Under the pieces are notes generated by a model. That model was given only the letters and a program-made list of their open reading frames with translations, was not told where the DNA came from and made no database searches. Below, in pieces: positions 27,017-48,403 of a stretch of 64,000 nucleotides of DNA; position 1 is the stretch's first letter; each line of letters opens with the position of its first letter. Source of the stretch: Posidoniimonas corsicana (GTDB lineage Bacteria > Planctomycetota > Planctomycetia > Pirellulales > Lacipirellulaceae); assembly GCF_007859765.1 (NCBI RefSeq), contig NZ_SIHJ01000001.1:1116767-1180766 (forward strand). The letters run 5' to 3'. The position numbers were made by a program, and so were the translations under genes.

Positions 27017-27829
27017 TTAGATTCGAGCTGTCCAAGTGTGATCGCGTTCATAGCCCAGCGCAACAAGTTGGTCGCCTGCATGCTCCTTGAACGCAGCAAC
27101 GGCCGCCGGCGTGAAGTGGTTCTTCCAATCGCCCGCGATACCCTTCCTGTTGTGCGAGCTTGCGTCACTCTCTCCTGGCTTCCTGCCCGTTTGCCTCTCG
27201 AAGCTGAATTTCTCCACTGTATCTCGTACTCGGACAGGATCGGCAGGCGTCCCCGAATGCGATTCGATGGCCCTGCCGAGGGTTCCGGCGCAGTCGGATA
27301 GTAAATCTTCGTAGCGCACCAATGCGACATGTTCCCGACTTGAAGTCCATTGCTGAACGTGGTCCGCCCAAGGAGTTGAAATGCCTAGCGGGCGTGTGCA
27401 CCAGCGTGTGACGAAGGTTGCCATGTTCTCCGCCGAACTTTCCACTGACCATCTATCGGCAACGGCTTCGGGAAACAATCGCTGAACGTACGCTTTCGTT
27501 CCCTCGTCGCCCGCTTCCAATCCTCGGAGCACGTGAAAATAGGCTGATGTGCAGACGTCTCGCCCATCCCTGTACAGGTAGAAGACGCGTCGAAGCCGTG
27601 GGCTGTACTTCCAGTGGTTCTGGATAACACAGCTGCAGCCCATAGGGAACACTGTGTGCGTGGGCTTGGGTATCTGGAGGTAGTCAGCGACCATCTTCGC
27701 CAGCCAAGTTCCACCCGACTTGGGAAACTCCGTCACGTAGTAGAACGGGAACGACTCGCCCCAGAACTCTCCAACGAACCTTGTCGAGCGAGTGCCGAAC
27801 CGACGCATCCACCCGGAGATGTAGCTCAT
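27017..27829 (-). CDS. Sulfotransferase (second)
   Basis: The ATG at 27829 overlaps the stop of the flippase gene (ATGA) and gives 270 residues. YYVTEFPKSGGTWLAKMVADYL is the 5'-phosphosulfate loop, RRVFYLYRDGRDVCTSAYFHVL the 3'-phosphate site, and HVALVRYEDLLSD together with NRKGIAGDWKNHFT are the conserved C-terminal blocks of the classic sulfotransferase domain. It differs clearly from the sulfotransferase at 24747, so the two probably modify different positions. The product would be a sulfated polysaccharide. The open frame extends upstream to 28195 but that part is the shadow of the flippase gene. Confidence 0.87.
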   Translation of the reverse strand: MSYISGWMRRFGTRSTRFVGEFWGESFPFYYVTEFPKSGGTWLAKMVADYLQIPKPTHTVFPMGCSCVIQNHWKYSPRLRRVFYLYRDGRDVCTSAYFHVLRGLEAGDEGTKAYVQRLFPEAVADRWSVESSAENMATFVTRWCTRPLGISTPWADHVQQWTSSREHVALVRYEDLLSDCAGTLGRAIESHSGTPADPVRVRDTVEKFSFERQTGRKPGESDASSHNRKGIAGDWKNHFTPAAVAAFKEHAGDQLVALGYERDHTWTARI

Positions 27830-29190
27830 AGTGCCAGAATCGAATTGCGTGTTGAACCCGGGCGCGTGCGCCACGGCGCGCGGACCATGGCAGAGAAAGC
27901 GTCTATCATTCCTTGCTGAGAGAGAGCCGACGCACGCTTCGTTGAGAAAAACAAGAAGGCAAGGTCGACCAAAGCTAGCATAATCGCTGCACCAGTGACA
28001 TTCGCCACATTGACCACCGGAACGGCAAATATGCATCCGGCAGCGATGCACGCGAGTAGCGTTAGCGAGAATGACTCGTGCTTGTTCATGGACCTTGCAA
28101 GAGTGGTGTTCACCATCGCGACGGCGTGCGCGGAGGCTCCAAGCAAGAGTGCGAAGAACGCGGTTGCGTTGTAAGCAACCTGGTCGTCGAGCCAAACTGA
28201 AGTAATCACCGGTCCGAGTGCGGCGAGCGCTAATGCTGCGCTAACCGATGCCCAGAATGACGAAGACAACAGCAGATCGTACATTCGCCGCAAGAGCTGC
28301 AAGTCCCCCTTTGCAATGGCGGCCGACATTTCCTGCTGCACCGCGCGATTCACTGTTCGGGTCAGTTGGAGCACTAACGAAGAAAGAGTTCGGAACGCAG
28401 TGAATGCCACCACAGCCGATGCTGAACTCGTATACCCTATGACTGCCACCATCGACTGTGACCGCAGCCCCGCAGCAAGCGGTAGAAGCGTATCAGCCAA
28501 GGAAGGTCGAACTAGTGATCGTGCAGAGTTGAAAGTAGCGCTGGCAAAACCAAAGCTTAGCCATGGCACTTGCTTCCTGAGTGCGGCGAATCCAAGCAGT
28601 ACGAAGACCGCTTGACCGGCGACCATCGCAAAGGCCACCGCTGATGGCGTACCTCGGCTGAGCAATGTGATAACGACAGCGACGAATGCTGCTAGCCTTG
28701 AGCCGTGCTGCCACATGAAGCCCGTAGCGTACTTCCCTGCCGCCCTGTAGCCCGCAAGCAACAGCCCAACCACAAGCTGGAGACTCACCTGAAATGCAAA
28801 CGCGATGAGCAGCGTCGTCACTGTGCTACGATCCAAGGCTCTAAACCCAAATAAACGACCTAGATCGACGAACGCGAGTAGAACGGCACCGAGCAGAATC
28901 AGTACGCCAACGGCCAAAGTTATTAGGCTAGAGGTCTGGAACACTTCCTCGACTCTGCGCTTGTCGTCGTGCGCCGCTAGTATCATCTCCGTGCCGCCCG
29001 CTGACGCAAAGCCACCGCCTCCTTGAGCAATGAATGTAGGCAGAGCAGCCAAGATCAACCACTCCCCGTACTGCTGCTCCCCCCAGCAGGTCAGGTACAA
29101 GGGAACGCTTAGAAGTTGGGTCGCGACGGTGACAATCTGCCCGAAGGCATTCGCGCCAATACCTCGTAGAGTTCGCTTTCGAATCGACAT
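27826..29190 (-). CDS. Wzx-type oligosaccharide flippase
   Basis: The 454-residue protein has about twelve to fourteen hydrophobic segments and opens RTLRGIGANAFGQIVTVATQLLSVPLYLT, typical of the polysaccharide-synthesis flippase family in the MOP superfamily. It would turn the lipid-linked repeat unit across the inner membrane. The gene lies directly downstream of gmd, 19 bases away, and its stop overlaps the start of a sulfotransferase gene. GC content falls here compared with gmd. Confidence 0.84.
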   Translation of the reverse strand: MSIRKRTLRGIGANAFGQIVTVATQLLSVPLYLTCWGEQQYGEWLILAALPTFIAQGGGGFASAGGTEMILAAHDDKRRVEEVFQTSSLITLAVGVLILLGAVLLAFVDLGRLFGFRALDRSTVTTLLIAFAFQVSLQLVVGLLLAGYRAAGKYATGFMWQHGSRLAAFVAVVITLLSRGTPSAVAFAMVAGQAVFVLLGFAALRKQVPWLSFGFASATFNSARSLVRPSLADTLLPLAAGLRSQSMVAVIGYTSSASAVVAFTAFRTLSSLVLQLTRTVNRAVQQEMSAAIAKGDLQLLRRMYDLLLSSSFWASVSAALALAALGPVITSVWLDDQVAYNATAFFALLLGASAHAVAMVNTTLARSMNKHESFSLTLLACIAAGCIFAVPVVNVANVTGAAIMLALVDLAFLFFSTKRASALSQQGMIDAFSAMVRAPWRTRPGSTRNSILAL

Positions 29191-29209
29191 TAGAAGTTGG
29201 GCGCCAAGC

Positions 29210-30229
<1,020 letters not shown>

Positions 30230-30265
30230 GGGTCTCTCGTGGACGTCGGTATCCGTTGTGGTGGG

Positions 30266-31225
30266 CTACTGGGCCCGGAGGGTGGCGGACTGATTGCTGG
30301 CGAGGAAATCCTGGTAGGTCAATCGGAGCCCGTCACTCAGGCTGATAGCGGGCGTCCAACCGGTGGACTGGATGCGTGACGAATCGGTCAGCTTGCGGGG
30401 TGTGCCGTCTGGCCGCGAGGTGTCGTAGCTAATGCGGCCGGTGTAGCCGACGGTCTGAGCGATGAGCTGGGCGAGCTCGCCGATTGGGATGTCCTGGCCG
30501 GTGCCGGCGTTGACCCAGTCGGGCGGGTCGGGGAGGTTGAGCAGGTGGACCAGCGCGGCGGCCAGGTCGTCGACGTGCAGGAACTCGCGGCGGGGCTTGC
30601 CGGTTCCCCAGACGACCACCTCTTCGAGGCCGTCCTCTTTCGCCTCGTGGAACCGCCGCAGCAGGCCGGGCAGCACGTGGCTGTTCTCTGGGTGGTAGTT
30701 GTCGCCGGGCCCGTACAGGTTGGTGGGCATGGCCGAGTGGTAGGTCACGCCGTACTCCTGGCGGTAGTACTGGCAGAGCTTCAGCCCGGTGATCTTGGCC
30801 AGAGCGTAGGCCTCGTTGGTGACTTCCAGCGGCGAGGTGAGCAGCGAGTCCTCCGGGATCGGCTGCGGCGCCAGCTTGGGGTAGATGCAGGTGCTGCCGA
30901 GGAACAGCAGCCGCCCGACGCCCGCCTCGTAGGCGCCCTGAATCGTGTTGAGCGCGATGCGGGTGTTGTCGATCATGAACTCGACCGGGTAGGTCGAGTT
31001 TGCGACGATGCCGCCGACCTTGGCGGCGGCGACGATCACCTGGTCGGGCTTCTCTGCAGTGTAGAACTCGTTGACGGCGGTTTGGCTGGTGAGGTCGAGC
31101 TCCTCGCGGGTGCGGAGGATGAGCTCGTAGCGCGGGTCGTTCTCTAGAGCGCGGACCAGCGCCTTGCCCACCATGCCGCGGTGGCCGGCGATGTACAGTC
31201 GAGTCTTTGAGGAGGAGTTGCTCAC
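30266..31225 (-). CDS. fcl: GDP-L-fucose synthase
   Basis: The GTG at 31225 gives 319 residues with the expected N-terminus, [21 protein letters not shown]. Further family blocks are [33 protein letters not shown], the catalytic Tyr in [15 protein letters not shown], and the nucleotide-sugar site [22 protein letters not shown]. The enzyme epimerises and reduces the product of Gmd to GDP-L-fucose, using NADPH. It lies 36 bases upstream of gmd in the same transcription unit and 17 bases after the antiterminator gene. Confidence 0.96.
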
Positions 31226-31242
31226 GGCTTCATGGTCGGCAG

Positions 31243-31812
31243 CTAGGAGGTAACGAGCAGGTCGGCGTGCACTTCCACGACGATCCCGCCCCCAAGGGCG
31301 CCAACGCCGACCCACACCTTGTGGGGCCGCGACGCGTCAAGCACCACGCCCTCCCAGTCCTTCATGGCGCCGCCGGTGACCCGGACCCGCTGGCCCTTCA
31401 CCACGTGATTGTACAGCTCGACGCTCTCCGGCCTGGTCTGCAGGCACGACTCGAGCGACTGGAGCTCGCGGCGGAGCACGTCGTGCTCGGCGTCGTTGGT
31501 GGGCAGGAAGTGCAAGATCCGGTTCGTGCGGACCGCCTCGAGGCGGCGGGTTTCTTCGGCGGCGAAGAATAAGTAGGAGGGGAAGAGGGGGAGCAGCGAA
31601 CGCCGCCGGCGGCCCCCGGAGGTGGTGAGCCGCTCGACCATCGGCAGGAAGTACGAAACGCCCAGGCTCATCAGGTCCCGGGCGAGTGACTTCTCCTGCC
31701 GCGGCTTGCAGTACGCCACGTGCCACGGCGTTGCCCAGTCCTCCGCCGACAGCTGGGCTGACGCGGTGGGCGCGGAGTAGCTGATCGGTGGGTCAGCGTT
31801 TTGGGTGAGCAA
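31243..31812 (-). CDS. NusG/RfaH-like transcription antiterminator
   Basis: The 189-residue protein has a NusG N-terminal domain, [20 protein letters not shown] and PLFPSYLFF, and a C-terminal KOW region, [20 protein letters not shown]. It is not the housekeeping NusG because it leads an exopolysaccharide cluster and has a diverged sequence, like RfaH or UpxY. It probably rides with RNA polymerase through the long downstream operon and suppresses early termination. It is the first gene of the unit; no ops-like element was recognised in the leader. Confidence 0.9.
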
Positions 31813-33720: not shown

Positions 33721-34344
33721 CTACCGTCCCACGGATGTGAGCTGTTGTAGGCGGAGCAGTAGTTGGGTCAGATCACTGCCGCCGTCACTCGACGGCGGGC
33801 TTCGATGCGGCCGCACCCGTTCCTCCACTGTCGTCGTCGAGCACGCAACCCGTCGGTCGATGACGGAGAAGGTTCGATTGCACAGGAACCGTACTGCCCG
33901 ACGGTAAACCTCTCTCTGCTCGTCTGGCTCCAGCAGCGGTTGTCCGACATTCTCGCAGGCCGAGGAAACGATCGACCTAAGGCTCTCGATCTCGTTGCCC
34001 GACTCAGCAACAAAATCGGCCAGCCGCTCGTCGTTGTCGATCTCAGCGAGCAGCTCCGACTCTACCCAATGGTACACCGCCGCCACCGCTACACGCAGTG
34101 ACTCCGGCTCTAGCAAGGCGTCCCGCTCACGCGAGGGTACCAGCAGCACGGACAGCAACTGATCGAGGCGCCGCAGACGCTCTTGATAGGGTAGCGCGTC
34201 GAACTCCGCGCAGCCGGTGGGTCCATCCTCGCAAGCCAGGTTGTCGACCAGCACGCCCACCGCGATCTCAATCACCGATCGCTCCCCGCGCATCAGAGCG
34301 TCGGGCACGTCGTGTCGGAACTCTCGCCCGTCGTTTTCTGTCAT
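33721..34344 (-). CDS. Hypothetical protein
   Basis: The frame encodes 207 residues and starts with ATG six bases after GAGGGAC, a good ribosome-binding site. The protein is acidic and mostly helical, with blocks such as AEFDALPYQERLRRLDQLLSVLLVP and AVAAVYHWVESELLAEIDNDERLADFVAES. The C-terminus is Arg/Ser-rich. No signal peptide, membrane helix or known domain was recognised. It is divergently placed with respect to the globin-coupled kinase at 35133, which could indicate a functional link, but this is speculative. Confidence 0.6.
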   Translation of the reverse strand: MTENDGREFRHDVPDALMRGERSVIEIAVGVLVDNLACEDGPTGCAEFDALPYQERLRRLDQLLSVLLVPSRERDALLEPESLRVAVAAVYHWVESELLAEIDNDERLADFVAESGNEIESLRSIVSSACENVGQPLLEPDEQREVYRRAVRFLCNRTFSVIDRRVACSTTTVEERVRPHRSPPSSDGGSDLTQLLLRLQQLTSVGR

Positions 34345-35132
34345 GGGTCCCTCGTCGTTTCTCGAGCTGGAAGCCGAGTGGTCGGCGACGCCTGTCTCGA
34401 CCGAATACCTTTGACGGCACGGAGGAGTCGGGGCGCCGCCGTCCTATCCTTGTTGCAGGCTATCCGAGCCTCGAGAGTCGAGCCATACGGGCTAACCCTT
34501 GCGCTATCATCCAAACGCAGTAGGTGGGGAGTCTGCTGAGAAGGCCGTTGAGGGATAGCCCCTAGGCCGGCATCGCACCGCCACTCCATCTCGTTCGCGT
34601 CGCGTCACCGTTCGCACAACGCGTGTGGCATCGTGTGAGTTTCTGCATGGGTCTGTTTGGGAGTGCACGAGTCTTTACGTGAGAGAATCTGTGACTGACG
34701 CAACGGATGCGACTGACACATCGACGGCAAACAGCGATGCGACTTCGGCTGCCCGAAGTTGGTTGGCAGTCCTGCGTAGACGTGATCGACTTCCATTGAT
34801 GAAAGGCTAATCGTCTTCGCGTTGTACCGCGCGTCGAAGAATTTCAATCCAAACCGCCTCCAGCCCAGTTGTCCTAGCGGCGCAGCGGCAACTGTGTGTA
34901 TCCTCAGGCAGGATCAACGCGTTGCCGCGCAACTCATCAACTGCTCGCTTGGCTAGTTCCCTATGTGTCTGGCCGGCGGAGCGACACAGCGCAGGATGTG
35001 CTCGCAAGATCAACCCCCATCGCGACAGGCGTGTGCGCGGACCGCACGTCGGACGGTCTTGTCGCGCTTGGGCAGAGTCGAAGCGTCGCGCGGCGCCAAG
35101 TGTGATCAACACGGAAACGACAAGGGCCGTAG
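34345..35132. other. Intergenic region before the globin kinase
   Basis: About 790 bases without a secure gene. A minus-strand frame at 34807-35112 (101 codons, ending RRAVDELRGNALILPEDTHS and about 30 more) and a plus-strand frame at 34625-34810 (rich in Asp/Thr/Ala) could encode small proteins, but neither has a clear ribosome-binding site or known domain. No tRNA or terminator was recognised. The promoter of the 1053-residue kinase should lie near its right end. Confidence 0.45.
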
Positions 35133-38100
35133 ATGGCAGACACGAACGACGATGACCTTAAGAGCGCGTTGGGCCTCACCCCCGAGGCGGTTGAGACCCG
35201 GCTGCAGATGATAGGTCTAGACGCCTCCTCGCGAGACAGCCTCGGCAGCTACTGGCCGACCGCACAGGAGTCGACCGCCATACTGCTTGAGCAGTTCTAC
35301 GACCAATTCATTTCGACCCCAGACCTGGCCGCGGTGCTTGGCCACCCGAGCCGCATCCCAAAACTGATACTTGTTCAAACCGAGTATTTGGAAAGCCTGT
35401 TCTGCGATCCGATCGACGCCGAGTACGTTGATCGCCGACTCCGGATCGGCGCCCGCCACCACCAGCTGCGTGTGAAGCCCCAGTGGTACCTCGCGGCGTG
35501 CGCGCATCTCCTCTGCGGCTACATCGAGGCCGCGCCCACGACCAATCGGCAGGAGCCGATGGCGGTCGACGAGATCGACGCGATGGTCAAGAGCCTGTTC
35601 TTCGACGCCTCGCTTGTCCTCGACGCCTACATGCGTAACGCGGACCTGGCCGCGACGAGCGGAGCGGCTGAGCATACCGGCCCACACGTTCCGACGGGGG
35701 AGCGATCCGGCATGCCAACGCCGAGTTCGGTGAACGGTCAGCGTCACGCCACGGCGGCCATAAGACGCCTGCGGATGAACGAGAGCGACGTCAGCCGCCG
35801 AGCGACTTTCCTGGGACTGGAAGACCGCTGTCTGGAGGGCCTCGCCGCCGCCGCGCCCGCGGTGCTGGACGCCCTCCCGGGGGTGCTCCAAGAATTCTAC
35901 GACCTGATCGAATCCACCGCGGACCTTGCCGGGATGCTGGAAGGCGAGCAGGTTCAACGGCTGATGTGGCAGGTGAGGTCGTACTGGAGCGAGCTGCTGC
36001 GGGGAGAGATCGACCCGGTGTATGCGACCTCGCGGATGCGCATCGGCGCGGTGCACGAGCAGCTCGGCATCCCACCGCAGCTCTACCTTGCCGGCCTGGC
36101 GCGGCAGGTGAGCCGCTTGCTGCCGGTGGTGATGGGGCGGGGCGACGATGGCCGGCACACGCTCAGCACGCTGTTCCGACTCGTGTTCTTCGACGTGACG
36201 TTCGTGATCGACGCGTACATGGAGGCCCGCGCGTCCCGCCTGCTCCAGCTGCGCGGTTTGGCGTCGCAGGTAATGACCGACGTCAGCTCCGCGGTTGTCG
36301 TTACGGACCGGGAGTGTCGCGTGCTGTTCGCCAACGAGGCGTTCGTGTCGATGGTGGGGATCGACCCCGGCCTGCTGTACTGCATGGAGCTTGCCAACGC
36401 GATCCCCAGCATGGATCTAGAGGGGGTTGTTCGGTCCGTCGGCGCTAGCCCACAGCGGCGGCTGATGCTGGTCAAGAAACTGGGGGACCGCAGTCTGCGT
36501 GTGACCATCAGTGAGCTTGAGGCATCGCAACCGGCCGAGGGCAAGATCGCAATCGTCCTGGACGATGTGAGCGAGCTTGTGCGTGTCGGCGACTCGTTCG
36601 ACAGCACGTCCGCGCAGTACCAACGGCTTGCCGACGTTGTCGCGGCGGTGCTCTGGGAGATGGACTGGGAGACTCGGACGCTGGTGTCGCTGTCACGCGG
36701 CGCGTTGGAGCTGATCGGCCAACGGGACGTTTCGCTGCTTGGACGCGCCCATGCTTGGACGACGGCGATCTACCCCGAGGACCATGCGGCGTTTGTCGCG
36801 GCCTGCGAGAGCCTGAATGAGCTTACGCACAACAGCTGCGAGTACCGCATGGTCCGGTCGGACGGCCAGATCGTCTACGTGTCGTCCCACCTGACTCGCA
36901 CCACTTCAGAAGGCGACAAGCTACGCATCGCGGCGGTGACCACCGACATATCGCAGACCCGTAGCACCGACCGCCTAAGGCTGTCGTCGCTGGAACACTT
37001 CTCGTCCAACATCTGCGACGTTGTCAGCACGGCGGTCGCGTCGGTCGAGTTTGACCTCCAGCGCATCGCCGCCGCACCAACGCCGCCCGGTGCGTCAGAC
37101 CGCGGCGTTTCCCAGGCCCTGTTCGCCGTCAAGCGGGTCGCGTCTGTCCTCGGCAGCCTTAACGCGTTCTCCGGTCGCCAGCGGCTGGATGTTCAGGCGG
37201 CCGACCTCAACGATCTTGTCCACGAGTTCCTCGCCGAGATCAAGGTCATCGCCGGCGAGGAGTGCGACCTTGAGCTGCAGCTGGCGCCCGACCTACCCCG
37301 CTGCCGTGTCGACCCGCGGCGGTTCCTAGTCGTCGTCAGCCACCTGATCGACAACGCGCGCCGCGCGGCGTCGGGGCGTGTGCACATTGTCATCGGCACC
37401 CGCTGCCGCGGGGACTTTGACGACATCCCTTGCCCCATCGCTCACAAGCCCGATTGGATCGAGCTGAGCATCGCTGACCGAGGGCGTGGCATGCCCTACG
37501 AGGTACGGCGGAGGGCGTTCGAACCCTTCTACTCCGCCTTCGCGGAGCCCGGCCGCTACGGCCTTGGGCTGAGCATCGTCCACGGGTACGTGACACAGTG
37601 CGGTGGGTACTTAGCGTTGAGCAGCGTTGAGTCCGAGGGCACCACGGTCGCGATGAGGTTCCCGGCCATCAACGGAGAGGTGGAAATGGCCGCGCCGACG
37701 AACGGGTCGGCCGCCCCAGCGAAGGTCCTGATTGCGGGCGGAGGAGACCACGAGATCAGCGCAGCAGTCGCTGCGGCGGAAGCCCTCGGGTGCACCGTGC
37801 GGGTTGCTCGGAGCGTCGCGTTGGCCCTAGAAGTAGTCGGGCGTGATGGCATGGACATCCTGATATCCGACTCCGCGTTGGCGGGCCCGACGGATGGCTT
37901 CGGGCTAGCGAACATCGCGGTGTCGTACACGCCGCATATTGGCTCAATTGTGCTGGTCGATGCCGGGGCAGCAAATCTTGCCACGCACAACCCGGCAAGC
38001 GGCCTGCTCGTGCTGACCAAGCCCGTGGACGGCGAAGAGCTTTCCACCCACATTCAAAGTCTGCTGGGAAGGAATGCCCGGCGGGTTGACGAGCTGGCTC

Positions 38101-38294
38101 GCCTGACGGCGCGCGAGCGTGAGGTGCTGCAGCACGTGGCGACGGGGAAATCGCAGGTGGACATTGGCCGGCTGCTGGGTATTTCCGAACGCACTGTCGA
38201 ACAGCACGTCCGGGCCGCTCGCAAGAAGCTCAACGCGGTGAGCACCGTCGACGCCGTCGTTCAGGCAATCGGGAACCGAGAGATTGTTCCCTAA
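35133..38294 (+). CDS. Tandem globin-coupled hybrid histidine kinase with LuxR-type DNA-binding domain
   Basis: The 1053-residue soluble protein contains two globin-coupled sensor (protoglobin) domains, about 20-170 and 220-365. Their proximal-His regions align: RRLRIGARH (His109) with PQWYLAA, and SRMRIGAVH (His308) with PQLYLAG. Two PAS-like domains follow (about 376-485 and 495-610), then a kinase with candidate phospho-His622 (SLEHFSSNI), N-box Asn741, DRGRG (782-786) and GLGLSIVHGY. Residues 864-978 resemble a receiver with Asp913 and Lys963 but only one acidic residue at the N-terminal site. Residues 990-1047 are a LuxR/GerE helix-turn-helix (LTAREREVLQHVATG). Heme domains would sense oxygen or another gas. 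Joining sensor, kinase, receiver and DNA-binding end in one chain is very unusual. Targets unknown. Confidence 0.88.
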   Translation: MADTNDDDLKSALGLTPEAVETRLQMIGLDASSRDSLGSYWPTAQESTAILLEQFYDQFISTPDLAAVLGHPSRIPKLILVQTEYLESLFCDPIDAEYVDRRLRIGARHHQLRVKPQWYLAACAHLLCGYIEAAPTTNRQEPMAVDEIDAMVKSLFFDASLVLDAYMRNADLAATSGAAEHTGPHVPTGERSGMPTPSSVNGQRHATAAIRRLRMNESDVSRRATFLGLEDRCLEGLAAAAPAVLDALPGVLQEFYDLIESTADLAGMLEGEQVQRLMWQVRSYWSELLRGEIDPVYATSRMRIGAVHEQLGIPPQLYLAGLARQVSRLLPVVMGRGDDGRHTLSTLFRLVFFDVTFVIDAYMEARASRLLQLRGLASQVMTDVSSAVVVTDRECRVLFANEAFVSMVGIDPGLLYCMELANAIPSMDLEGVVRSVGASPQRRLMLVKKLGDRSLRVTISELEASQPAEGKIAIVLDDVSELVRVGDSFDSTSAQYQRLADVVAAVLWEMDWETRTLVSLSRGALELIGQRDVSLLGRAHAWTTAIYPEDHAAFVAACESLNELTHNSCEYRMVRSDGQIVYVSSHLTRTTSEGDKLRIAAVTTDISQTRSTDRLRLSSLEHFSSNICDVVSTAVASVEFDLQRIAAAPTPPGASDRGVSQALFAVKRVASVLGSLNAFSGRQRLDVQAADLNDLVHEFLAEIKVIAGEECDLELQLAPDLPRCRVDPRRFLVVVSHLIDNARRAASGRVHIVIGTRCRGDFDDIPCPIAHKPDWIELSIADRGRGMPYEVRRRAFEPFYSAFAEPGRYGLGLSIVHGYVTQCGGYLALSSVESEGTTVAMRFPAINGEVEMAAPTNGSAAPAKVLIAGGGDHEISAAVAAAEALGCTVRVARSVALALEVVGRDGMDILISDSALAGPTDGFGLANIAVSYTPHIGSIVLVDAGAANLATHNPASGLLVLTKPVDGEELSTHIQSLLGRNARRVDELARLTAREREVLQHVATGKSQVDIGRLLGISERTVEQHVRAARKKLNAVSTVDAVVQAIGNREIVP

Positions 38295-38631: not shown

Positions 38632-39281
38632 CTGCTTCCCTTCTTCGACTGGAGTAGTACACCCGCTACAGCGTGCCAGCCCGTCAATGCGGCTACGCGG
38701 CTAGCTGGCGTGCTGGTTGCCTTTGCACACGGTCGGTTGCAGCAGAGTCTTCATCAGCTCACGTCGTCAGGACTCTTGAGGCTGTGTGCTTCGATCCGGT
38801 CAGCGGCAGCCAGAACTTGACAAGGTGCGCCAATTCTCGCGTCGCATTAGGGGGCACCCCCTACGCAGAAGCCCTTAGGCAATGGCGCCTACCAGGGCTG
38901 ACCCGTACAGCTCTCGACACGGGTTGTGCCAGGCGTTGTACACACGCCCCACAGCGTTGGTAGCGGCAGCATGCATTCGGAAGCCGCAACTTACCATGCA
39001 GTAGCCGCTCTCCTGCTACAAATCCCGTACATCGTGCCCCAGCCTCCCTGAGGTTGACCGCAATATTTCTGGCGAACATCGGTCATGGGTACGCCAATCG
39101 GGCGTTCTCGGTCGAATTTGAATCTTTTCTTCTTTTTCGAGGGCACTTTCAAGCTTCCCGCAGGGAGGAATCTCTAGAGTGGATCCGCGCGGCGCCTGCG
39201 GCCGGGAAGGCCGACATCGGCGTGGATGCGATGGTTCCGTACCCAGGGCCGAATTGGCGAAGGCGTAATCAAAGGGATGGG
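38632..39281. other. Intergenic region before the ECF sigma factor
   Basis: About 650 bases with no convincing gene. An open frame continues the sigma-factor frame upstream to 39054, but its translation is not conserved-looking and the family length favours the ATG at 39282. A polypyrimidine tract lies near 39125-39140. The promoters of the small LuxR gene (minus) and of the sigma factor (plus) should be here; no consensus was seen. Confidence 0.45.
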
Positions 39282-39818
39282 ATGGGCGAAGCCGACTCCA
39301 ACACCGACGACCGGTTCATGCAGTTGCTGACGCAGAACCAGCGCCGGCTGCTTGCGTTCATCGCCGGCATGACGCCTTCCTTGGGCGACGCCGAGGATGT
39401 TCTGCAGGAGATAAACATGGCGTTGTGGAAGAAGCGCGAACTCTATGACTGGGACCAGGGGTTCCTGCAGTGGGCGTTCGGGTTTGCGTGGATCGAGATC
39501 CGGCGTTTCCGCGACCGGCATTCAGCAAAGCACCTGTGGGCGAGCGACGCGGTCCTCGAGTCATTGGCCGCGGCGTACCCCAGAGAGACAGGCGTGCGGG
39601 AGCAGCGGCTCGACGCGCTCGCCGGCTGTATTGACAAGCTATTCACCGACGAGCGTCTGTTGATTAACGACTTCTACGCGCGACAACAGTCGGCCAAGGC
39701 CCTCGCCGAGTCCACGGGCCGGTCCGTCCGAAACGTCTACAAGCTGCTGACCAAGACTCGTCAACGGCTGCGGGAATGTGTTGAGCGGAGCTTGGCGCAG
39801 CGTTCAAGACCCGTGTGA
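39282..39818 (+). CDS. ECF-type RNA polymerase sigma factor (Rhodopirellula/Verrucomicrobium type)
   Basis: The ATG at 39282, preceded by AAAGGGATGG, gives 178 residues. Region 2 is FMQLLTQNQRRLLAFIAGM, DAEDVLQEINMALWKK and FLQWAFGFAWIEIRRFRDR; region 4 is DFYARQQSAKALAESTGRSVRNVYKLLTKTRQRL. This group of sigma factors is typical of planctomycetes and verrucomicrobia and is commonly followed by a FecR-like membrane protein, as here 55 bases downstream. It probably directs transcription of a small set of envelope genes in response to its partner. The signal is unknown. Confidence 0.92.
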   Translation: MGEADSNTDDRFMQLLTQNQRRLLAFIAGMTPSLGDAEDVLQEINMALWKKRELYDWDQGFLQWAFGFAWIEIRRFRDRHSAKHLWASDAVLESLAAAYPRETGVREQRLDALAGCIDKLFTDERLLINDFYARQQSAKALAESTGRSVRNVYKLLTKTRQRLRECVERSLAQRSRPV

Positions 39819-39873
39819 TGCGGCCCAATTACTCATTTCGCTTGATCTCTAACGGAAACGCGAAAGTATCGGG

Positions 39874-41442
39874 ATGACCGATCCGAGAGAGCAGTCCGAT
39901 CTCGATCGACTCGAGCAGCTGGTCGGCGATAAGTGCAACGGCGCCCTCGATTCCGATGGCTACGCTGAACTCCACGCCCTGCTGGCGCGGTCGGAACGGC
40001 TCCGGTGCGAGTACTGGGAGCTGATCGCATTCAACACCGACCTGCACTGGGTCCTCGCCGATGTCCGGACGCCCCAACAGCGTCGGGACACGGACTCGCC
40101 AACACCCCACCACGGCCAGCCCGTCCGGCTGCCCATCTACTGGCTTGCCGCAGCACTCGCGGCGAGCCTGCTGGCGGCCATTGGTCTGGCGGTAAGCCTT
40201 TGGCCTGGCAGCGAGGATGATCTGCCTACCGTGGTCGCCGATGCGGGCGGCGAGCGCGATGAGCTAGCCCTACCGAACGCGGACAGCCGGGCCTCGCAGC
40301 AACCTGCGCAGCAGAACCCCGGTGCCAGCACTGCGATCTTTGCTGCGTCGTTGACCTCGCCAACCAACGACAGCCGCTGGCGGAGCTCACAGAGCTCAGA
40401 CGCGAACCCTCAGCGTATCCGACTCGGAGAGAAGCTCTGGGTCGATGCCGGGGCGATCGAGATGCAGATCGATGGGGGCGCGGTGGGCGTGCTCCGCGCC
40501 CCCGTGGAACTCCAATTGCACAGCAGCTCCCGGCTTCAACTTGTGCGGGGACGGATCACGGTGACCGCCCCCAAGCTTACCAACGGATTCACCGTCGACA
40601 CCCCATCGGCCGAGGTCGTTGACCTCGGTACGGTGTTCTCCGTCGCGGCCGCCGAGACGGGGACCGACCTGGTCGTGTTCGGAGGCAAGGTCGACCTACG
40701 CGTGCCACCAACCAATCCCAAGAACGGCGGCGCACCTCCGGGCGACGCCCTGCACCTCGCCAAGGGAGACGCCGTGCACGTCAGCAGTGAGGGCGGGTTG
40801 TCGCGGATCATGAGCGTGCAGTCGTCCGGTGATCCGATGGACCTTAACCGAGCGCCGCGGACGCCGGTCGTGGGCTCGGTCGCTGACAACGTCGACCGGG
40901 AAGGAAACTGGAAGTTCTACGAGATCGTCGCCGGCGGGATGCGGGAAGACGCGCCGGCCTACGTCGACCGCTTTCACGAATGGAACGGGCTCACGCCGGA
41001 CGGCATGCCCGCGTACCTGGTTGGCGGCGACTACGTGCGGATGTTCAACGAGGACAAGGCGGACGAGGACCTGCGGATCGAGATCATGCTCACCCGCCCC
41101 TCGGCCCTCTATGTGCTGCTCGACAACCGGGTCGCGGCGCCGGATTGGCTGGCCGCCTCATTCGAGAACACGGGCGACGAGATCGGGGTCGACGAGTCCC
41201 CTCACGATACCGCGAACCGCTTCCCCGCCAACGATCAGTTCGCCCAGGTAGGACCAGGCGAGAGCATCGATCGCGTTCACTCGATCTGGAAGGCGGCGGC
41301 GCCTAACGGCGGCCCGGTCGTCCTAGGACCCAACGGACTGCTGCCCAACCGTCAGGACCAAGACCCACGCCCCAGGTATATCCGCGCAAACATGTACGGG
41401 GTCGTAGCGGTCCCTTTGGCCGACGCCCCCGCTGCCCCCTAA
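39874..41442 (+). CDS. FecR-domain membrane protein, probable sigma-factor partner
   Basis: The 522-residue protein has a cytoplasmic N-terminus of about 85 residues (DRLEQLVGDKCNGALDSDGYAELHALLARS, resembling an anti-sigma helical region), one membrane helix (86-110) and an outer FecR domain: LVRGRITVTAPKLTNGFTVDTPSAEVVDLGTVFSVAA and VVFGGKVDLRV. The C-terminal half continues for 200 residues with no family that I could name. It is likely the regulator or signal receiver for the sigma factor encoded just upstream. Topology would place FecR in the periplasm or paryphoplasm. Confidence 0.85.
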   Translation: MTDPREQSDLDRLEQLVGDKCNGALDSDGYAELHALLARSERLRCEYWELIAFNTDLHWVLADVRTPQQRRDTDSPTPHHGQPVRLPIYWLAAALAASLLAAIGLAVSLWPGSEDDLPTVVADAGGERDELALPNADSRASQQPAQQNPGASTAIFAASLTSPTNDSRWRSSQSSDANPQRIRLGEKLWVDAGAIEMQIDGGAVGVLRAPVELQLHSSSRLQLVRGRITVTAPKLTNGFTVDTPSAEVVDLGTVFSVAAAETGTDLVVFGGKVDLRVPPTNPKNGGAPPGDALHLAKGDAVHVSSEGGLSRIMSVQSSGDPMDLNRAPRTPVVGSVADNVDREGNWKFYEIVAGGMREDAPAYVDRFHEWNGLTPDGMPAYLVGGDYVRMFNEDKADEDLRIEIMLTRPSALYVLLDNRVAAPDWLAASFENTGDEIGVDESPHDTANRFPANDQFAQVGPGESIDRVHSIWKAAAPNGGPVVLGPNGLLPNRQDQDPRPRYIRANMYGVVAVPLADAPAAP

Positions 41443-42069: not shown

Positions 42070-42711
42070 CTACTTCGCAGCCGACTGCTGCTCGAACTCG
42101 CTGCGGGTCGATTCGTCAATGAAATAGAAGGTTTCGCCGCCGACGTTGAGGGTCGCGGCGGCGGCGTACTTGGGGAAGCTGACCTTCGCGACGGGGTCCA
42201 CCACCATGTGGTCCTTCAGGTAGTAGTTGTTCTCGTGCAGCGCCACGTAGGTCTGGACGAAGCCGACGATGCGGTCCTCGATCCAGCTGGCGAGGGCGTC
42301 CTCGTCGACGGCGTCGAGGGGGAAGTCGACCTCGCTGTGCGAGTCGAACTTCATCAGGATGGGGAGGATCTTGAGGTCGTAGCTGACGATCAGGTTCCGG
42401 ACGTCCGGGTCCGGCGCCACCGAGAAGGTCAGGTCGATCTTGGCGAGTTCCGACCGGAACGCAAACAGGCAGCTCCGCCGGCTCGGTTCGACGACCGGGT
42501 GCGTGTCAACGCGCTCACCGAACTTCTGTGCCAGCGCCTCGAGCCGGGGGCGCCAGATCGCGCTGAGCCGCTCGACGGTTTGGCCGAACTCTTCCAGCCG
42601 CTGCTGGCGGCCGAGGTACGCCTCGGCCTGCTGAGACTTGAGCTGCTGCGCCCGCTCATCGGCCGCCGCCAACTCCGCGTCGATGCGATCGATTAGGCTT
42701 TCAATGGCCAT
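42070..42711 (-). CDS. Conserved hypothetical protein with N-terminal coiled coil and YHS-like end
   Basis: The 213-residue protein starts six bases after GGAGG. Residues 1-65 form a predicted coiled coil (ELAAADERAQQLKSQQAEAYLGRQQRLEE). The middle is a beta-rich part, and residues 168-205 resemble a YHS metal-associated motif: MVVDPVAKVSFPKYAAAATL, then GGETFYFIDESTRSEFEQ. The metal-binding Cys residues usual for YHS are absent, so metal binding is doubtful. No signal peptide is present. Function unknown. Confidence 0.7.
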   Translation of the reverse strand: MAIESLIDRIDAELAAADERAQQLKSQQAEAYLGRQQRLEEFGQTVERLSAIWRPRLEALAQKFGERVDTHPVVEPSRRSCLFAFRSELAKIDLTFSVAPDPDVRNLIVSYDLKILPILMKFDSHSEVDFPLDAVDEDALASWIEDRIVGFVQTYVALHENNYYLKDHMVVDPVAKVSFPKYAAAATLNVGGETFYFIDESTRSEFEQQSAAK

Positions 42712-44337: not shown

Positions 44338-45780
44338 ATGAAACGGGCATTCTTGGTCGTCGCAGTCTTGATCAGTTGCCTACTAGTCGCTGACCACGTG
44401 TTGGCGCGCGGTGGTCGAGGCGGCGGTGGGCGCGGAGGCGGCGGTGGCGGATTCAGCCGTGGCGGCGGAGGTGGCTACAGCCGCGGCGGGTTCAGTGGAG
44501 GGGGCTACTCCCGACCGCCCGCCAGCCGGACCCCGTCGGTGAGCCGTCCCGTCTCGCGTCCGTCTACGCCTTCGGCGTCCCGTCCGAGCGTTTCGCGTCC
44601 CAGCACCCGCCCCCCCTCCGCGACGACCCGCCCCAGTGGCCCCCGGCCCGGCGGATCGACTCCCGGCGCTCGGCCTGGCGGTGGCGCCCGACCCGGCGGC
44701 GGCACGCGCCCGGGGACGGGAGCGGGGGGCCGCCCGTCGACGTCGGACCTGCAGAACTTCCTCGACCTGAAGCCGTCCACCGGCGCACGGCCCGGGACCC
44801 AACCTTCGACCCGCCCCGGTGGCGGCCGCGGCAGTTTCGCGGGGGGCGCCGCCGCGGGCCTGGCGGGGAGCGCCGCGGCAGACTTCCTGCGTGACACGAG
44901 CGCTCGCCCCGGCACGCTGCCGGCTGAGCGTCCCGGAGCGGGCGACCGACCCGGCGGCGGCGAACGTCCCGGCGCAGGCGACCGGCCTGGACCAGGCAAC
45001 CGACCGGGCGCAGGCGACCGACCTGGAGCTGGTGACCGGCCTGGCCGCGGCGAGCGTCCCGTCCACCCCGACCGTCCGCTGGCGAGCAGCCGGCCCGACC
45101 GGATCGAGAACCGCGGCCAGCGCCAGGAGATCCGCCAAGAGCGGCGCGACGAGATTCGTGATCACGTGCACGATCACCCGATCCGCGACTTCTGGTCCGA
45201 CCACCCGCTGTGGGGCGCTTGGGCCATCACGCGGCCCTACCGCTGGGCGGCGTGGGGCGGCGTCGCCGGTTGGGTCGACTACGGCTGGTCCAACCCCGTC
45301 TACTACAACTACGGCGAGAACGTCTACTACGAGGACGGCTCCGTCTGCTACGACGGCGAGCCGGTCGCCACCGAGGCCGAGTACATCGAGCAGGCGGAGC
45401 AGATCGCCTCGCGCGCCGACGACGTCGAGGTCGACGAGGGCGATTGGATGCCGCTCGGCGTGTTCGCCGTCACCCAGGACGGCCAGAAAGACGGCCCCGA
45501 CCCGACGCTGTTCCTGCAGCTGGTGATCAGCAAGGAGGGCGTTATCTCCGGCACGCTCAACGACACCAAGACCGACACCACCCAGACCATCGAAGGCATG
45601 GTTGACAAGGGATCGCAGCGGTCGGCGTGGAACGTTGTGGGCAAGGATCGGCCGATCATGGAGACCGGCATCTACAACCTCACGCAGGACACGGCGCCGG
45701 TGCTGGTTCACTTCGCCGACGGATCGACGCAGCAATGGCTGCTTGTGCGGCTCGATGATCCAGCGGGACAACAGGAATAG
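44338..45780 (+). CDS. Secreted Gly/Arg/Pro-rich low-complexity protein with conserved C-terminal domain
   Basis: AGAGGA precedes the ATG at 44338, giving 480 residues with a signal peptide ending near ADHVLA. Residues 24-60 are Gly/Arg-rich, 60-130 are Ser/Pro/Arg repeats, and about 195-245 are short tandem units of the form GAGDRPG. A Trp/Tyr-rich segment (IRDFWSDHPLWGAWAITRPY) follows, then a conserved C-terminal domain of about 100 residues (LGVFAVTQDGQKDGPDPTLF). It resembles planctomycete surface proteins annotated as protocadherin-like. It probably binds envelope polymers through its basic repeats, an inference. The repeats are protein-coding tandem repeats, not CRISPR. Confidence 0.78.
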   Translation: MKRAFLVVAVLISCLLVADHVLARGGRGGGGRGGGGGGFSRGGGGGYSRGGFSGGGYSRPPASRTPSVSRPVSRPSTPSASRPSVSRPSTRPPSATTRPSGPRPGGSTPGARPGGGARPGGGTRPGTGAGGRPSTSDLQNFLDLKPSTGARPGTQPSTRPGGGRGSFAGGAAAGLAGSAAADFLRDTSARPGTLPAERPGAGDRPGGGERPGAGDRPGPGNRPGAGDRPGAGDRPGRGERPVHPDRPLASSRPDRIENRGQRQEIRQERRDEIRDHVHDHPIRDFWSDHPLWGAWAITRPYRWAAWGGVAGWVDYGWSNPVYYNYGENVYYEDGSVCYDGEPVATEAEYIEQAEQIASRADDVEVDEGDWMPLGVFAVTQDGQKDGPDPTLFLQLVISKEGVISGTLNDTKTDTTQTIEGMVDKGSQRSAWNVVGKDRPIMETGIYNLTQDTAPVLVHFADGSTQQWLLVRLDDPAGQQE

Positions 45781-46057
45781 CGGGAGCACACGAGGATGAG
45801 GGAAGCAACGGGGGTCCGGTGACCCCGCTGCTGGGCGTGCTGCGGATGCTGTAGGACGTCTTCTGGGTCGAGTTGGCGGTGACTGTTTTTCTGGCCACTC
45901 GCCGGCAAGTTGCGGACCGTGGCACTGGTGTCGACGGTCCACACTTTGCTGCGCAGGGTCCCGGCCAAGTGAGCTACCGACGAGCCGCCGCCCGGAGTCC
46001 GGTTGTTTGCCACGCGTCCTCCCACTCCACCTGTTACTTGGAGGCGTTGAACCCGCA

Positions 46058-48403
46058 GTGACCCCGGACGAGCAGCAGTACGACGAGCAGCCCACGCGGG
46101 AAACGGACGTAACGGCCAAAGGCGAGACAACGTCGCTTCCGGACAGCGCGGACGACACCTCCCCCACCGCGGGCGATAGCCCGTCGCCACAGGGCCGCGT
46201 GGGCACGACGCTCGGCAAGTACAAGATCACCGGCGTCCTGGGCCAGGGCGGCATGGGGGTGGTCTTCCGCGCCTACGACCCGGCGATCGACCGCGAGGTG
46301 GCGATCAAGCTGCTGCCCGAGCAGCTGGCCAACAACGAGACCGTGCTCAACCGTTTCCGCGCGGAGGTGCGTTCGGCCGGCAGGCTGAGCCACGCGAACG
46401 TCGCCGCGATTTACGACGTCGGCGAGGAGGGCCGGGCGCACTACATCGTGATGGAACTGATTGGGGGAGGGAGCGTCTCGGACGAGCTGCAGCGGCACGG
46501 CGCGCTGCCCGTGCTCGACGCCACCCGCATTGCCATCGACGCCTGCCAGGGCCTAGCGGCCGCCCACGCCGCCGGCCTGATCCACCGCGACGTCAAGCCG
46601 GCCAACCTGCTGAGGGCGGCCGACGGCGCCGTCAAGCTGACCGACTTTGGCATCGCCAAGGTCTCGTCGCTCGATTCGTCCGACTCGCCCCACCTGACTC
46701 GCACCGGCACCGTCGTGGGCACGCCCCACTTCATGAGCCCCGAACAGTGCCAGGCGGAGCCCGTCGACGCCCGCAGCGACATCTACTCACTCGGCGCCAC
46801 CTACTACTGTGCTCTGACCGGACGCCAGCCCTACCAAGACTGCGACAGCGTCATGCAGGTGCTGTTCGCCCACTGCAAGAAGAGCATCCCCGACCCACGC
46901 GAGACCAACCCCGAGGTCCCGGTCGCGTGCTCCGAGATCATCGCCCGCGCGATGGCCAAGGACCCCTCCGACCGCTACCAGACCGCCGAGGCGATGCTGG
47001 CCGACCTGCAGGCGGTCACCTCCACCCCATCGGGCGAGACGCGGATCGAGCTCCCGAGCCAGTCGGGGACGGCCCACCCGACGGTCTCGTCAACGGAGTC
47101 CGGCCCCACACGCAGGCGGTTCGTCGCCGTCGGCGCCGGCGTCGCGATTGCCTGCCTGGCGGCGGTCGTGGCCGGGTCCTGGATGGGGCGTGACCCCGCG
47201 TCGGGGTCGTCGGCGATCGCCGCGGCGCAGGGAGACCCCATCGACGTGGGGGTGCTGCAGTCGCTCAGCGGCGCGATGTCGGTGAGCGGCGCTAGCGTCA
47301 CCAACGCGACGCTGCTGGCAATCGATGAGATCAACGAGCAGGGCGGGCTCCTGGGGCGGCCGGTGAACCCGATTGTAGCGGACGGCCGTTCGGACTCGGA
47401 CGTCTTCCAGCGCGAGGCGGAGCGGCTCATCAGTGACGACCAAGTCTGCGTCGTGTTCGGCTGCTGGACGTCCGCCAGCCGCAAGTCGGTAAAGCCACTC
47501 TTCGAGCAGCACGACCACCTGCTGGTCTACCCGGTCTGGTACGAAGGGATGGAGACCTCTCCCAATATCGTGTACCTGGGGGCCGCCCCCAATCAGCAGA
47601 TCATCCCCGCGGTCACCTGGGCCCGCGAGAACCTGGGCAAGAAGCGGTTCTTCCTGGTCGGCTCTGACTATGTATTCCCGCGCGCCGCCGCTGAGATCAT
47701 CAAGAGCCAGCTGCAAGAAACGGACGCGTCGATCGTTGACGAGCGCTTCCACCCGGTCGGAAGCTCGGACTTCCGCTCGACGGTGCAGGCCATCCAGGCC
47801 GCCAAGCCGGACATGGTACTCAACCTGCTCGCCGGCGACGCCAACACTGCCTTCTTCCGGGCTTTGAGGGAGGCGGGCGTTAGCACCGGCCAGACCCCGT
47901 GCCTGTCGTTCAACGTGGGCGAGCAGGAGCTCCGCACGCTCAACGCCGCCGACGTGGTGGGGGACTACGCGGCGATGACGTACTTTCAATCGCTGGACAC
48001 GGAGGCCAGCCGGAACCTCGTCGAACGCTTCTCCAAGAAGTACCCACAGCGCGTCGTCTCCGACCCCATGGAGGCGGCCTACATCGGCGTGCACCTGTGG
48101 GCCCAGGCCGTGCGCGAGGCGGGCAGCGTCGAACCGAAGGCGGTGCGGCGTGCGATGCTCAACCAGCGCCTCACCGCGCCCGAAGGAGAAGTCCGCATCG
48201 ACCCGGACACGCAGCACTGCTTCAAGACGCCGCGGGTCGGGCAGATCCAGGCCGACGGGCAGTTCCGCATCGTCTGGACCGCTCCCGCTCCAATCGCCCC
48301 AGAACCCTACCCGCCCGGCCGCACCGCCGAAGACTGGAAGGCCTTCCTTCACGACCTCTACTCGGGGTGGGGGAACCAGTGGGCCGCGCCCCGATCTCAC
48401 TGA
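46058..48403 (+). CDS. Ser/Thr protein kinase fused to a urea/amide-type solute-binding domain
   Basis: From the GTG at 46058 the protein has 781 residues; the start is uncertain because GGAGG is 13 bases away. Residues 54-320 are a complete PknB-like kinase: GQGGMGVVF, VAIKLL (Lys84), HRDVKPANLL (Asp178), DFGIA (Asp196) and GTPHFMSPEQ. Residues 355-376 are one membrane helix. Residues 394-750 are a type I periplasmic binding fold of the UrtA/AmiC group: VGVLQSLSGAMSVSGASVTNATLLAIDEIN, VVFGCWTSASRKSVKPLFE, LVYPVWYEGMETSPNIVYLGAAPNQ. The outer domain probably binds urea or a short amide and controls the inner kinase. The gene is followed by glgX at 37 bases. Confidence 0.88.
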   Translation: MTPDEQQYDEQPTRETDVTAKGETTSLPDSADDTSPTAGDSPSPQGRVGTTLGKYKITGVLGQGGMGVVFRAYDPAIDREVAIKLLPEQLANNETVLNRFRAEVRSAGRLSHANVAAIYDVGEEGRAHYIVMELIGGGSVSDELQRHGALPVLDATRIAIDACQGLAAAHAAGLIHRDVKPANLLRAADGAVKLTDFGIAKVSSLDSSDSPHLTRTGTVVGTPHFMSPEQCQAEPVDARSDIYSLGATYYCALTGRQPYQDCDSVMQVLFAHCKKSIPDPRETNPEVPVACSEIIARAMAKDPSDRYQTAEAMLADLQAVTSTPSGETRIELPSQSGTAHPTVSSTESGPTRRRFVAVGAGVAIACLAAVVAGSWMGRDPASGSSAIAAAQGDPIDVGVLQSLSGAMSVSGASVTNATLLAIDEINEQGGLLGRPVNPIVADGRSDSDVFQREAERLISDDQVCVVFGCWTSASRKSVKPLFEQHDHLLVYPVWYEGMETSPNIVYLGAAPNQQIIPAVTWARENLGKKRFFLVGSDYVFPRAAAEIIKSQLQETDASIVDERFHPVGSSDFRSTVQAIQAAKPDMVLNLLAGDANTAFFRALREAGVSTGQTPCLSFNVGEQELRTLNAADVVGDYAAMTYFQSLDTEASRNLVERFSKKYPQRVVSDPMEAAYIGVHLWAQAVREAGSVEPKAVRRAMLNQRLTAPEGEVRIDPDTQHCFKTPRVGQIQADGQFRIVWTAPAPIAPEPYPPGRTAEDWKAFLHDLYSGWGNQWAAPRSH

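Follow-up and report, generated by a model that had tools for sequence, protein, structure and literature searches.

How does a signal leave a protein that joins two globin sensors, a histidine-kinase core, a receiver and a DNA-binding domain in one chain? The question is raised by a gene in a 64,000-nucleotide stretch of the Posidoniimonas corsicana genome (assembly GCF_007859765.1, contig NZ_SIHJ01000001.1, forward-strand positions 1,116,767 to 1,180,766), hereafter the window, to which coordinates refer unless another locus is named. The first-pass annotation had taken the gene product for a whole two-component pathway for gas sensing, folded into one protein. Comparison with its relatives points to a different answer: the protein probably descends from a hybrid histidine kinase and now serves as a haem-globin transcription factor, acting by conformation, possibly under the influence of ATP or ADP, and through direct, autoregulated DNA binding rather than a His-Asp relay.

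Architecture and relatives of the tandem-globin protein

The 1053-residue protein is encoded by one open reading frame (ORF). Pfam identifies Protoglobin over two stretches (E 5.9e-51), PAS_3 (E 1.6e-9), PAS_8 (E 3e-5), HATPase_c (E 8.3e-17) and GerE (E 3.6e-15); Response_reg falls under its cut-off (E 0.0091, 16.6 bits, cut-off 30.2). The phmmer matches comprise HemAT, AfGcHK, CckA, ZraS and LuxR-type structures. As annotated earlier, both globin stretches are present and their aligned histidines, His109 and His308, correspond to the proximal His of HemAT. The rest of the annotated chain (two PAS-like domains, a DHp/HATPase core, a weak receiver and a LuxR helix-turn-helix, HTH) was also recovered, except that the kinase lacks its phospho-His, and the claim that sensor and kinase-like core share a chain with their own DNA-binding domain is borne out by a GerE score of 55.8 bits against a cut-off of 23.5. 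The features, all on the forward strand, are:

35133..38294: tandem-globin PAS/pseudo-kinase/pseudo-receiver/LuxR-HTH protein, ATG at 35133 to stop at 38294, with full-length relatives
35184..35639: globin 1, proximal H109, distal B10 Y56 and E11 V81 (HemAT alignment; fold match to AfGcHK/HemAT, Z about 18)
35781..36227: globin 2, proximal H308, distal B10 Y256 and E11 Q280 (HemAT alignment; fold match to 2w31)
36267..36584: PAS-like domain 1, residues about 379-484 (PAS_8 at 379-411; end set from predicted strands, low confidence)
36687..36935: PAS_3 domain, residues 519-601 (Pfam)
36960..37172: DHp-like helical hairpin with D629 (37017-37019) and not His at the H-box (profile alignment; limits from the model)
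37311..37667: HATPase_c with N741, D782/G784/G786, F799 and G810/G812 intact (Pfam, column comparison)
37722..38072: receiver-like domain with G869 and G870 for the acidic pair and V942 for Thr/Ser, D913 and K963 present (Pfam, columns, receiver fold in the model)
38100..38264: LuxR/GerE helix-turn-helix (Pfam)

Three relatives carry two globins. The protein of Aeoliella straminimaris (Lacipirellulaceae, Pirellulales; genome G021, locus L025), from the family to which the window genome is also assigned, is about 49-50% identical over its full length and has the same domain order. So does a full-length protein with 37-38% identity from a metagenome-assembled genome (MAG) labelled Planctomyces sp. 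MAG-38 (genome G908, locus L024). A third, from genome G921 (locus L082, 35% identity), has two globins, PAS, a kinase core and a receiver and lacks only the HTH, with no Pfam match to GerE. The architecture seen in the window is therefore not a chance assembly. Within the HTH, the stretch SERTVEQHVR is identical in all three proteins that bear one.

In a full-length AlphaFold2 model built from three sequences, the better modelled stretches are both globins, the ATPase and the receiver. VIA-align, run on 998 chains, matched residues 19-167 to the AfGcHK globin (Z 18.4), residues 14-164 to HemAT (Z 17.9) and residues 217-364 to 2w31 (Z 17.3), and gave CckA at Z 19 and receiver domains at Z about 18. 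The arrangement of the domains relative to one another in this model should not be trusted.

The proximal His and the B10 Tyr are kept in both globins of all four tandem-globin proteins, as they are in HemAT, EcDosC/YddV, PccGCS and BpeGReg, and E11 serves as a second hydrogen-bond donor in some globin-coupled sensors (PMC12805357 and PMC10882959). At E11, the position of HemAT Thr95, the three HTH-bearing proteins have V, L and L in globin 1 and Q in every globin 2, and the G921 protein has T and L, so that each of the four pairs one polar with one nonpolar pocket. This difference between the pockets makes unequal O2 affinities likely, and it lends indirect support to the annotated idea that duplicated globins could widen the sensing range. 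In a tree of 39 rows, which include three duplicates of the window and Aeoliella domains and leave out G921, the first globins of the three species group together (98/96), as do the second globins (100/99); sister support between the two clades is weak (89/43). Since first and second globins each form their own clade across these species, the sequences place the duplication before the three species split. Separately, G164:C12 carries two equal-scoring single-domain protoglobin genes 4.9 kb apart (40825-41340 and 45729-46244), perhaps a recent duplication.

The architecture is rare in the genomes searched. The samples of the order, class and phylum overlap and were drawn evenly, and their counts are not frequencies for the whole phylum. 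A tandem-globin alignment (E <= 1e-15) matched 24 of 297 class genomes, four of which cover both halves (the window's own, G021, G908 and G921), in line with the rarity that the first-pass annotation had implied. The same alignment matched 34 of 392 phylum genomes, with both halves covered only in the window's own, and a two-row alignment (E <= 1e-60) matched two of 396 genomes of the order. Among 97 related genomes, the window's own included, Aeoliella has the sole other full-length relative among the matches listed, the rest being partial; a scan of genome contigs with two peptide patterns, an insensitive method, returned six loci, two full-length (L025, L024) and four matching only parts of the C-terminal half. 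That tandem globins might be common was rejected: none of 30 other globin ORFs (29 phylum loci and one from the window's own genome) is tandem. A Pfam globin survey of the class matched 198 of 297 genomes at E <= 1e-8, the window's own not being among the matches listed, and leaves the tandem state unsettled. Among plasmid records, 20 gave a match; of the 10 listed, four cover at least 80% of the query yet span only 480-654 nt, a single globin matched by both halves, and none of these four is tandem.

The kinase core and the receiver

A His-Asp relay needs residues that this protein does not have. In an hmmsearch with the DHp-ATPase alignment, the H-box His of CckA, ZraS and KinB falls on the column of D629, where the other two HTH-bearing proteins, those of Aeoliella and the MAG, have G and N. 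Control loci had His in this column in 22 of 22 countable cases. They had been fetched for resemblance to the query and are not a random sample; of the 38 that matched the profile, 16 were uncountable as their alignments begin after the column, and the count leaves out second alignments that cross PAS stretches, which give V in L022 and T in the loci of the sensor itself. The nearby H622 was rejected as the phospho-His, as the profile alignment gives D629 and the H622 column is occupied by A in the Aeoliella protein and by D in that of the MAG. HisKA is missing from the Pfam matches of the window protein, which says little alone, because the His-bearing G921 protein has no such match either.

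The G921 protein (L082 4091-7183, reverse strand) keeps His in the phospho-His column and has a canonical receiver, and is likely an active tandem-globin hybrid kinase. Even this kinase may be weak, because the residue after the phospho-His column is V or I in all four proteins, where the controls mostly have an acid. The phospho-His is thus lost where the HTH is present (3/3) and kept where it is absent (1/1), an association drawn from four sequences. The ATP-site motifs (N, G1, F and G2 boxes) are intact in all four.

The receivers differ from protein to protein. Listed as acidic pair, phospho-Asp, Thr/Ser and Lys, they read GG/D/V/K in the window, DS/E/S/K in Aeoliella, DS/D/T/K in the MAG and ED/D/S/K in G921; the MAG and Aeoliella proteins both exceed the Pfam cut-off for Response_reg. 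Set against a hybrid histidine kinase, the window protein retains the ATP boxes and lacks the phospho-His and the receiver set. A complete two-component pathway in one protein, as annotated, is not supported, given the D, G or N in the phospho-His column of the HTH-bearing members and a receiver phosphorylation site that is not conserved.

The upstream palindrome and neighbouring genes

A LuxR/FixJ-type DNA-binding regulator would be expected to have a palindromic site close to the promoter that it controls. A candidate is a 16-bp palindrome, TRCGGGNTANCCCGYA, with the symmetric form TACGGGC-TA-GCCCGTA, found in the HTH-bearing genomes on the upstream side of the sensor; its 7-2-7 layout resembles that of NarL-type sites. 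The window has two candidate sites between the sensor and a divergent partner gene, P0002:

34486..34501, no strand assigned: candidate operator 1, TACGGGCTAACCCTTG, 13 of 16 positions matching the palindrome (pattern search and shuffles)
34549..34564, no strand assigned: candidate operator 2, TGAGGGATAGCCCCTA, 12 of 16 matching, 63 bp from the first (pattern search and shuffles)
33721..34344, reverse strand: partner gene P0002, 207 residues, family not recognised, divergent from the sensor and also found in Aeoliella

The three upstream regions (788, 399 and 258 bp) have GGCTAGCCCGTA-like 12-mers in common. The best 12-mer triple was equalled by one of 400 shuffle sets, a figure unchanged by correction over eight word lengths, and by none of 60 in an earlier run at the same length. 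At word length 13, four of 400 sets did as well, and at lengths 8, 9, 10, 11, 14 and 16 the counts were 399, 156, 274, 40, 42 and 158 of 400. The Aeoliella region also holds two copies, with 13 and 15 of 16 matches, 59 bp apart; when the window and Aeoliella regions were each shuffled 1000 times, neither series ever produced a second site as good as that observed. At three mismatches or fewer the 64-kb window has nine matches to the pattern against a chance mean of 8.87, and the pair at 34486 and 34549 are its sole matches at two mismatches, with none at fewer.

Across the 25 genomes scanned, exact copies of the palindrome occur in two, one copy each, both at the sensor locus. There is none in the window genome or in the 22 others, G921 among them, and 21 of those 22 also lack a tandem-globin sensor according to the alignment searches. 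The perfect copy in the MAG came to notice only once the pattern had been fixed. It occupies L024 8061-8076, some 210 bp ahead of the NtrC-type gene; this gene is followed by the sensor gene, and the two are assumed to be a single unit. The window genome has six sites with one mismatch, and the five that could be read all lie under stop-to-stop frames of at least 100 residues, which is no proof of coding. A large regulon was considered and rejected, there being no genome-wide enrichment over a backward control of the pattern in three genomes. No sigma-70 promoter-like site was found in 34200-35200, against 0.3 expected.

P0002 has no match in Pfam or NCBIfam. Its Aeoliella homologue, in the same place, is 36% identical over 156 residues and shows only a sub-threshold match to Nrap_D5 (18.3 bits, cut-off 27). 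The MAG sensor gene comes after that of an NtrC-type sigma-54 activator (L024 8288-9700) and faces genes for a DUF892 protein and a catalase (L024 13243-15437), a hint of an oxidative-stress context in this genome.

Upstream of the sensor in the window, 27017-31812 on the reverse strand holds a sulfotransferase-domain gene, a GDP-mannose dehydratase, a second gene of the epimerase/dehydratase family and a NusG-like gene, and looks like a fucosylated exopolysaccharide cluster. Downstream lie an ECF-type sigma factor, in which only region 2 was detected, and after it a FecR-domain protein (39054-41442, forward) and a 213-residue ORF (42070-42711, reverse) that has no Pfam match at E <= 0.001. 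The window contains no RNA families or tRNAs that we could detect.

A proposed path from hybrid kinase to DNA-binding switch

With the phospho-His lost and the receiver site eroded, we favour conformational signalling over phosphoryl transfer, and because the output domain is attached here, direct DNA binding controlled by haem and possibly by nucleotide. The two globins, with their unlike distal pockets, would bind O2 or another diatomic gas at their haems; ligation would alter the linker, the PAS region and the dimeric DHp/ATPase core, and this change would reach the C-terminal HTH allosterically. The nucleotide site is intact, and ATP or ADP bound there could act as a second input. The HTH would then bind the palindrome before its own transcription unit, making the protein probably autoregulated, and in the window would also be placed to control the divergent partner gene. 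Of this picture, the sequences themselves show the architecture, the loss of the His, the intact ATP motifs and where the palindromes lie; haem and gas binding, allostery, DNA binding and the direction of control are inferred.

Several observations weigh against this reading. Only three HTH-bearing sequences were found. Little confidence can be placed in the full-length model, whose mean pLDDT is 56.7, with 380 of its 1053 residues between 70 and 90 and none higher. In the MAG, the receiver retains Asp, Thr and Lys, and the two sites beside the sensor are weak: they match at 12 and 10 of 16 positions, lie 55 bp apart, and have scores that 9 and 49 of 1000 shuffles attained. In the window, neither palindrome of the pair is perfect (two mismatches in each), and their distance to the partner ATG, 142-220 bp, is shorter than that to the sensor ATG, 569-647 bp, so that control of the partner gene, more than of the sensor, may be their role. 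The shuffle scores for the window and Aeoliella are flattered, because the pattern was partly derived from their sites. The backward control has one exact match in each of five of the 25 genomes, against two for the pattern, and at two mismatches or fewer the pattern is the rarer in all three genomes compared (85, 54 and 42 against 91, 126 and 67); it is therefore the placing of the palindromes, not their number, that counts.

An alternative that we regard as unlikely, yet worth weighing, is a pseudo-kinase of the NifL, RetS or DivL kind, whose main output would be nucleotide-dependent binding of a partner protein, the HTH only recruiting the complex to the promoter. The partner would be P0002 in Lacipirellulaceae and perhaps the NtrC-type regulator in the MAG. 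NifL, DivL and RetS are among the structural matches in the PDB, the NtrC-type gene is directly upstream of the MAG sensor, and P0002 occurs in two of 196 order genomes, the same two Lacipirellulaceae that have the sensor, and is divergent from it in both (1/294 phylum genomes, the window's own). However, searches of the MAG genome and of G921 found no P0002, which leaves no one partner common to all the sensors, and the P0002 model (pLDDT 47.9) is too poor for a fold search.

A working phosphorelay ending on DNA, as first annotated, has little chance of being right: the domain order is that of a hybrid kinase, the HATPase is intact and the G921 relative has both His and a canonical receiver, but none of the three HTH-bearing proteins has an H-box His, none of the four has an acid after it, the window receiver lacks both acidic residues and that of Aeoliella the phospho-Asp. 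Phosphorylation of the receiver by another kinase, driving the HTH and leaving the protein's own core only to sense, fares if anything slightly worse; the Response_reg scores and the Asp, Thr and Lys of the MAG speak for it, and the Glu in place of Asp in Aeoliella and the missing metal-binding pair in the window against it. A decaying gene with no present function would explain the lost catalytic residues and is most improbable, given that full-length ORFs exist elsewhere (49% and 37% identical), that the haem His and the ATP motifs are invariant, that the HTH stretch is identical and that palindromes are placed at the locus.

The haem-globin transcription factor that we favour borrows from several known systems. 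Globin sensors drive chemotaxis, cyclic nucleotides, stressosomes and kinases; HemAT, EcDosC/YddV, PccGCS and BpeGReg have a single globin with chemotaxis or cyclic-di-GMP outputs and, to our knowledge, no DNA-binding end. AfGcHK of Anaeromyxobacter, the best globin fold match of the model, likewise has a Protoglobin-type sensor before a histidine-kinase core, with one globin and a separate response regulator. The window protein differs in its two globins, its missing phospho-His and its own HTH. AfGcHK is an active kinase whose autophosphorylation rises on O2 binding (PMC8697598). NifL-like pseudo-kinases are marked by a kinase-like core that works by binding nucleotide instead of transferring phosphate, and by a redox-sensing FAD-PAS domain and a NifA partner. 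The window protein has lost the His and kept the ATP motifs, and the MAG sensor has an NtrC-type neighbour. NifL of Azotobacter acts on NifA and, as far as we know, has neither globins nor an HTH. Hybrid two-component systems such as the Bacteroides HTCS also join kinase, receiver and HTH in one chain, with His and Asp kept, membrane sensors and an AraC HTH at the end. The His is lost too in the chloroplast sensor kinase CSK (PMC5054060). CSK, DivL and RetS are histidine-kinase relatives, the last two among the matches of the window protein. They have other sensors, and we know of no attached DNA-binding domain in them. Among the papers searched, judged by titles, the openings of abstracts and selected passages, none describes a tandem-globin sensor kinase or a globin-HTH kinase.

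With less assurance, we think it quite possible that the lineage is in mid-conversion from a phosphorelay hybrid kinase of the G921 type to a direct haem-controlled transcription factor of the window type. In that case the receiver would be eroding stepwise, a single DNA-bound protein would read two gas ranges through functionally different globins, and the palindrome would be its operator. If the sensor acts on DNA through a disabled kinase core, it would show how a two-component protein can turn into a one-component switch. Its relatives may represent intermediate states, and the 16-bp operator predicted here opens the idea to testing. A chain with two unlike haem pockets would also offer a way to learn whether a bacterium can gauge two gas levels with a single regulator.
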